This document shows positions 42,527 through 44,274 of a DNA stretch of 64,000 nucleotides, piece after piece. Both the position numbers and the translations under genes were made by a program. A model generated the notes under the pieces. It ran no database searches. It worked only from the letters and a program-made list of their open reading frames with translations, and was not told the DNA's origin. The first letter of the stretch is position 1. Every line of letters starts with the position of its first letter. The DNA comes from Clostridiales bacterium (lineage in GTDB: Bacteria; Bacillota; Clostridia; Christensenellales; Borkfalkiaceae), in assembly GCA_015055865.1 (NCBI GenBank), contig SVHK01000003.1, forward strand, positions 1 to 64,000, written 5' to 3'.

Positions 42527-43852
42527 TTATTTAAGTCTTTCCGGAATAACGTCGTTGCGAACTATGTCTTGATACGTTTGTTTCTTAATGATATAATCCG
42601 CTTTTCCGTCTTTTACGAGTATGCAAGGCGGTATTTTATTGCGGTTATAATTCATTGCCATTGAATAATTGTACGCCCCGGTTGATAAAATTGCTAAAAT
42701 ATCTCCACTTTCCGCTTTCGGTAACGCAACGTTTACGGCAATCAAATCTCCGCTTTCGCAACATTTCCCTGCGATAGTTACGATTTCTGTTGACGGTTCG
42801 TTTGCTCGATTAGCTAAAACGGGCGTATATTTTGATTGATATAAAGCGTATCTAGGATTATCGAACATACCGCCGTCAACGGCGACGTATTTTTTTACGC
42901 CGGGAATATCTTTAATTGCGCCTACCGTATAAAGCGTTACGCCTGCTTCACCAACGATGGAACGACCGGGCTCGATTAAAAGATACGGTAATTTTAAAGA
43001 CAATTCTTTGGCTTTTATTTTGACTTGATTAATTAACGCTACTAAATATTCCGCATAGCCTTCAGGACTGATTTTTTTATCTTCATCCGTATACCAAATC
43101 CCGTATCCACCGCCAAGATTGAGTTTTTTTGCGCTAAACGAATACTTTTCCTGCATTTTTGCGAGAAAATCCATACATTTATCTACGGCTAAGACAAAGG
43201 ATTGCTTTTCAAATATTTGCGAACCGATATGACAATGATACCCTTCTAAAACAACGTTTTCTTTTTGCAAAGTGTATTCCGTGATTTTCTCCGCCGTACC
43301 GTCAGAGATGGAAAATCCGAATTTACTATCCGTCGTTGCTGTTTGCACGAATGCGTGGGTATGCGCCTCAATGCCGGGATTGATGCGTAGTAAAACTTTT
43401 TGAACCATACCGCGCTTTTTTGCTTCAACGTCTATTTTATCAATTTCAGAATAGGCGTCCGCGACGATACAACCGATTTTACAATCCAACGCTTCGCCTA
43501 TTTCATAATCGAGTTTATTATTGCCGTGCATATAAATTTTTTCCGCAGGAAAACCGGCTTGTAACGCAGTATAAAGCTCTCCGCCGGAAACGACGTCAAT
43601 GCCGATGTTTTCTTGGTTTGCGATTTTATAAATTGCCTTGCACGAAAAAGCCTTAGAAGCGTATAATACGCAACCATTACCGTTGTATTCATTAGCGAGC
43701 GTATCGCGATAAACGCGCATCATTTTTCTTATATAATCTTCGTCGAAAACGTAAAGCGGAGTACCGAATTCTTTTGCTAACTCTACGCAATCAGCGCCTC
43801 CGATTTCCAAATGCCCTTTTTTATTTACTCTTAAAGTCGTTCGTTCGTTCAT
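42527..43852 (-). CDS. lysA: Diaminopimelate decarboxylase
   Basis: YASKAFSCKAIYKI PLP-lysine region, HCHIGSQIFE, LNLGGGYGI, CCESGD. Confidence 0.95.
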   Translation of the reverse strand: MNERTTLRVNKKGHLEIGGADCVELAKEFGTPLYVFDEDYIRKMMRVYRDTLANEYNGNGCVLYASKAFSCKAIYKIANQENIGIDVVSGGELYTALQAGFPAEKIYMHGNNKLDYEIGEALDCKIGCIVADAYSEIDKIDVEAKKRGMVQKVLLRINPGIEAHTHAFVQTATTDSKFGFSISDGTAEKITEYTLQKENVVLEGYHCHIGSQIFEKQSFVLAVDKCMDFLAKMQEKYSFSAKKLNLGGGYGIWYTDEDKKISPEGYAEYLVALINQVKIKAKELSLKLPYLLIEPGRSIVGEAGVTLYTVGAIKDIPGVKKYVAVDGGMFDNPRYALYQSKYTPVLANRANEPSTEIVTIAGKCCESGDLIAVNVALPKAESGDILAILSTGAYNYSMAMNYNRNKIPPCILVKDGKADYIIKKQTYQDIVRNDVIPERLK

Positions 43853-43859
43853 CGTTTTT

Positions 43860-44154
43860 ACCTACTGTAAATTCATAGCCAAGACATTGTAATCCGAACC
43901 AAGATTTTGAGTGATAAAATCGTATGAGTACTGCATTCAAAACCTTGAAAATACGTATAGTATTTCCTTCGGCTTTCGCCTTATATTCCTTCGATTTTAT
44001 CTACTGAAAATTGCTTCACACCCAAATTGAAAGATTTTAAGGTGATTTTGGGCGATAAGGAAACAATAATACTTGCCGTATTATAATGATGACGAGCTCA
44101 AAAGGGCTTAAAATATCCGTTTTTGGCTAGTTCGGATTATACTATTTAGGCTAC
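43860..44154 (-). ncRNA. Candidate structured, pseudoknotted RNA / long 5' leader of lysA
   Basis: No ORF; GATAAAATCG/CGATTTTATC stem (43913-43922/43992-44001), GGC-GAAA-GCC hairpin, ATAATAC-ggcaa-GTATTAT hairpin, crossing long-range pairs TAATCCGAA/TTCGGATTA (43890-43898/44131-44139) and TAGCCAA/TTGGCTA (43876-43882/44123-44129); upstream promoter. Confidence 0.7.
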
Positions 44155-44160
44155 GATAAT

Positions 44161-44189
44161 ATTGTAACAAATTTTAAATAAAATTGCAA
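44161..44189 (-). promoter_or_regulatory. Sigma-A-like promoter for the candidate ncRNA/lysA
   Basis: Minus strand TTGCAA - 17 bp - TACAAT. Confidence 0.65.
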
Positions 44190-44211
44190 GAGTCGAAAGC
44201 GTTTTTTTATT

Positions 44212-44266
44212 AAAAAAATCCGTTAGAACGTAAATTCTTTTAAAAACTTACGTCTTACGGATATTT
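44212..44266 (-). terminator. Terminator of the D-Ala-D-Ala carboxypeptidase gene
   Basis: Minus strand ATCCGTaAGACGTAA...TTTACGTTCTAACGGATTTTTTT. Confidence 0.7.
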
Positions 44267-44274
44267 TAACACTC

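Follow-up and report, generated by a model that had tools for sequence, protein, structure and literature searches.

What is the long gene-free interval that lies between dacB and lysA in this clostridial genome, and does it act upon lysA? An earlier sequence-only reading of the window (the entire 64,000-nucleotide stretch analyzed here) had placed in this interval a pseudoknotted, structured RNA with its own promoter, which might act in cis on lysA or be released as a small RNA (sRNA), and which might belong to a known class such as raiA. Several of the underlying observations were readily reproduced: the hexamers of the promoter, two inverted repeats (GATAAAATCG/CGATTTTATC and ATAATAC/GTATTAT), and the pair of exact long-range complementarities all lie where they had been reported, and the list of open reading frames (ORFs) holds none of ≥40 amino acids inside the segment. 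Its interpretation, by contrast, changed considerably once other genomes were examined.

The interval between dacB and lysA

On the minus strand, the end of dacB is followed by a promoter, a 278-bp segment, and, after 23 further bases, the start codon of lysA (Table 1), an ORF that we take to encode diaminopimelate decarboxylase from the name given in the earlier reading and from general knowledge. The segment folds better than its shuffled versions, with a minimum free energy of -76.3 vs. -55.1 kcal/mol (z = -4.5). After dacB, a strong hairpin and a T run (44207-44272) form a plausible terminator, and the sole Rfam-type match of this hairpin was a weak, chance-level one to a microRNA family.

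Table 1. Features at the lysA locus, in window coordinates
Feature	Position	Strand	Basis
Probable mobile palindromic element, whole, 278 bp, flanking TA at both ends counted	43876..44153	-	
Left inverted-repeat end (TIR) TAGCCTAAATAGTATAATCCGAAC, P1 5' strand	44130..44153	-	Two-sided changes and right-end complementarity across copies
Right TIR GTTCGGATTACAATGTCTTGGCTA, P1 3' strand	43876..43899	-	Complementary to left TIR
Arm A: bulged long inverted repeat, with the ATAATAC/GTATTAT hairpin as its tip	44020..44127	-	Covarying nested pairs
Arm B: bulged long inverted repeat with GATAAAATCG/CGATTTTATC and an AAATAC/GTATTT hairpin	43904..44011	-	Covarying nested pairs
Sigma-70-type lysA promoter, native, outside the element: TTGCAA-17-TACAAT	44161..44189	-	Same-kind promoters in element-free gaps
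lysA, with the element in its predicted 5' untranslated region	42527..43852	-	ORF; orthologues 70-84% identical

The lysA orthologues retrieved are clostridial, with Candidatus Borkfalkia and relatives of it among the sources, and the element was present in 0 of 80 orthologous loci. The dacB-lysA gap of the orthologues measured is mostly 75-235 bp, compared with 422 bp in the window. Because the element-free gaps of relatives contain the same kind of promoter as the window, this promoter belongs to lysA and is not the RNA's own, as had been supposed. The element begins shortly after the -10 box of this promoter. Empty sites in related species served as the reference for two insertions in another genus: the unoccupied site has a single AT dinucleotide, whereas the element has an AT on each side. 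In the window's subfamily, TA stands at both element ends, which makes it likely that TA was duplicated at lysA as well, the 2-bp duplication having been demonstrated at the other loci. One copy would have inserted at a TA just 3' of the promoter's -10 box, and it should be transcribed within the lysA 5' leader. Its place in this leader is a matter of chance, and its putative effect upon lysA expression, if any, would be incidental.

Copies and relatives across Clostridia

A DNA search of the genus showed that the window's genome has another full-length copy, 89% identical, and fragments besides, and that other species of the genus have many copies at ~70-86% identity. When 31 full copies were aligned end to end, similarity stopped sharply at both ends. 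A covariance model built from these aligned copies, which the window element matches with 247 bits over positions 1-277, located copies, the majority of them full-length, in 25 of 57 genomes of the genus, with up to 27 or more per genome, and further carriers among the genomes of the family (68/251), the order (47/347), and the class Clostridia (57/342). It should be noted that the wrong strand of this palindromic element also scores ~50 to 107 bits in the model, so low scores are no proof. A profile of the genus copies that used their sequence without any structure recovered 76 of the 77 order- and class-level loci with E < 0.01 and reached E below 1e-10 for most of the distant loci, while its reversed-sequence control yielded 0 matches. 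Many of these distant matches comprise the core alone, e.g. positions 43-250. The element is usually 275-285 bp long and occurs in up to ~50 copies per genome, and the window copy contains no gene. Neither a blastn search of plasmids and phages nor a core-pattern search of viral contigs detected the element. In one genome (G045), many contigs start or stop inside the element, so draft assemblies give too low a copy number. At a single locus (L212, 12-89), a Gut-1 RNA (RF01706, 65 bits) lies ~1.4 kb from one element copy. The element represents a widespread family that is abundant in uncultured gut Clostridia and apparently undescribed; no description of it was met in a literature search with thin coverage of subscription papers.

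The sequence of the TIRs differs strongly among lineages, with TAACC, TAGCC, ATACC, ATGCC, and also quite unrelated ends, and the core is kept throughout. There are also shorter derivatives of 63-232 bp that retain the TIRs and only bits of the core. Six of the derivatives (L247, L248, L249, L250, L251, and L252; 63-139 bp) are reduced to little beyond the TIR pair, so the ends by themselves may suffice for mobility or survival. At the other extreme, one genus has versions of 349-511 bp (L239-L244 and L255) whose arm A or B contains additional hairpins, as though another palindromic repeat lay nested within. In three copies (L189 1501-1777, L177 1501-1779, and L236 1501-1777), the TIRs resemble the 3' end of a tRNA, e.g. 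GGGTTCGACTCCCTTCACCT; no tRNA was found beside these copies and the spacing does not fit one.

Fold, base pairing, and orientation

We aligned 91 copies with a mean pairwise identity of 54% (lowest 34%), and 80 of the 84 pairs of the model fall among the 130 strongest covarying column pairs of this alignment. A structure-free alignment with blind choice of pairs gave 92 covarying pairs, all nested and 0 crossing; the number of covarying pairs is therefore about 84-92, depending upon whether the model or the blind scan is used. The nested pairs form a single Y, in which an end-to-end stem of ~26 bp is followed by arm A and then arm B. Across the aligned copies, the TIRs of 24-26 bp are mostly >90% paired, with two-sided changes. 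The earlier claim of a pseudoknot does not survive this comparison. Among the 31 full copies, only 59% of the cells of the crossing helix are paired and 1 of its 7 pairs has a two-sided change, compared with 98.6% paired and 6 of 7 pairs for the nested TIR helix. Two partners are available to the TTGGCTA end of the window copy, the internal TAGCCAA (a crossing pairing) and the outer TAGCC at 44149-44153 (a nested one), and the apparent pseudoknot results from the double occurrence of TAGCC close to one end of this copy. The GGC-GAAA-GCC tetraloop hairpin that had been proposed is likewise not conserved, as the consensus GAAA pairs with the opposite strand of its arm (columns 189-192 with 227-230).

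The types of base pair were then compared with those of an RNA. If one RNA strand were selected, G-U pairs should far exceed A-C pairs, which is the reason why the observed counts favor conservation at the DNA level: over the covarying pairs, G-U makes up 2.5% and A-C 1.8%, with nearly all of the rest being Watson-Crick, whereas tRNA stems from the same loci, which served as the control, have 12% G-U and 1% A-C. On the lysA-sense strand, the ratio of G-U to A-C leans in opposite directions in the two arms (30:60 in arm A and 77:23 in arm B; alignment A3). RNAalifold was similarly divided: with the diverse set, the lysA-sense strand came out ahead (-113 vs. -102), and with the genus set, its complement did (-60 vs. 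-70). A G-U excess of 305 to 120, considered for a time as proof of a lysA-sense RNA, vanished when the alignment and the choice of pairs were made blind to structure (~233 to 228). Copies adjoin unrelated genes in either orientation, with 42 sense and 42 antisense upstream neighbors and 41 and 43, respectively, downstream. Thus, the pair types and the lack of orientation bias argue for DNA of the MITE kind rather than for an RNA leader of lysA, and the predominance of Watson-Crick pairs, this lack of bias, and the spread of short derivatives together point to conservation at the DNA level. Complementarity would be maintained there in one of two ways: the folded form may be required by the enzyme or by an intermediate of replication, or repeated template switching may correct the palindrome.

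Several RNA-based explanations were weighed against this result. That the segment is a pseudoknotted leader or sRNA regulating lysA in cis appears extremely improbable: its site between promoter and start codon, where it would be transcribed, and its exact complementarities are what such a regulator might display, but the 80 orthologous lysA loci lack it, its copies adjoin other genes in both orientations, and its crossing helix is not conserved. Nor does it match any Rfam family, which bears equally upon the suggestion that a known class (lysine riboswitch, raiA/ModT, 6S, HEARO, and so on) was missed by eye. The size and end-to-end pairing of the segment do recall the large RNA classes; however, cmscan with all 4227 Rfam families, at gathering and relaxed thresholds, gave no credible match in the window segment, 12 genus copies, or 20 distant copies, the relaxed matches being chance ones to unrelated families. 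The lysine riboswitch (RF00168) had no gathering-score match in the element, and a covariance search of the genome for RF03072, prompted by the raiA guess, was negative, which leaves a known class with hardly any probability. What stands of the structured-RNA reading is a conserved structure outside Rfam; a lysA-specific leader, a riboswitch, or an sRNA with its own promoter is at odds with a multicopy mobile repeat.

A more serious contender is a mobile element whose conserved core is itself a structured RNA, e.g. one bound by a mobilizing protein or shielding host mRNAs. Its covariation is very strong in the core and independent of the TIRs, which change while the core stays conserved, the segment is more stable than its shuffles, and the surplus of G-U over A-C in arm B would suit the lysA-sense strand. 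Against this, arm A leans the opposite way, G-U is overall about as rare as A-C, unlike in tRNA stems, and there is no bias in gene orientation, so we consider an RNA core improbable.

Mobility and comparison with known systems

Very probably, then, the segment, ~278 bp long, belongs to a clostridial family of non-autonomous, MITE-like mobile DNA. This conclusion is based upon multicopy dispersal, empty sites, the 2-bp duplication, class-wide homology of the core, nested covariation, and the balance of orientations. As in a MITE, there are TIRs, a target-site duplication (AT, at two loci), and a short, multicopy body with no internal transposase gene. The element would consist of 24-26-bp inverted-repeat ends and two long imperfect palindromes, such that either strand could fold into the Y, and it would insert at a TA or AT dinucleotide and duplicate those two bases. 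Since it has TIRs and a 2-bp duplication, we infer the action of a transposase, presumably supplied in trans. Among the TIR pairs listed, which include those of a near-complete 1.6-Mb genome with ~50 copies, none bounds a transposase; their spacing is ~51-517 bp, mostly 281, and no autonomous partner at the IS-like distance of 1-2 kb is present among them, the genomes being draft assemblies. An IS630-type DDE transposase (DDE_3, PF13358) was considered as the partner, with the element as an IS630/Tc1-derived MITE, and was rejected, as carriers almost always lack it: the element's own genome has 0 matches, 29 of 30 carrier genomes lack it, and the remaining one has a degenerate match. Two explanations suggest themselves for a constant core with changing ends: the same core may have been captured by different transposases, or recognition may be directed at the folded core itself. 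A bolder form of the latter, to which we give only a modest chance, is class-wide mobile DNA whose machinery recognizes the two-armed folded core rather than the TIR sequence, with ends that could be exchanged as long as they are complementary, possibly via a folded single-stranded intermediate and an enzyme in trans.

The RUP elements of pneumococcus and the Correia/NEMIS elements are bacterial MITEs with TA target sites. The clostridial element resembles them in being short, non-coding, bounded by TIRs, multicopy, intergenic, and palindromic, in its 2-bp duplication, and in being transcribable with neighboring genes. It differs in that its TIRs vary by lineage while a ~225-bp core is conserved across a class, and in that an IS630-type transposase is missing from nearly all carriers (29/30). 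In most MITEs, the interior shows little conservation; in this family, by contrast, the TIRs turn over and the core persists. REPINs are short doublets of REP sequences that are moved in trans. Like REPIN/RAYT systems (PMC3116915), the clostridial element is palindromic, has no transposase inside, and would be mobilized in trans, but its body is 278 bp long, with TIRs of 24-26 bp, and its insertion duplicates 2 bp. ERIC, bcr1, YPAL, and other stem-loop repeats are also dispersed and have a predicted common secondary structure (PMC2267715), a likeness shared by the element described here. Those repeats are listed per species and often form one stem-loop (ERIC), whereas the clostridial element has the form of a Y with two arms, and its compensatory changes are seen across the class. 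Finally, the raiA motif/ModT RNA (PMC11706538) is similarly large, structured, and found in Bacillota, but the clostridial element is mobile and multicopy and its genome is without an RF03072 match.

These results carry a caution, as strong covariation and low folding energy can stem from palindromic mobile DNA; RNA and mobile DNA are separable by their G-U vs. A-C counts, gene orientation, and empty sites. A core that outlives its TIRs raises the question of what moves the element. For its hosts, the family means that folded inserts of 278 nt enter the leaders of core genes, lysA among them.
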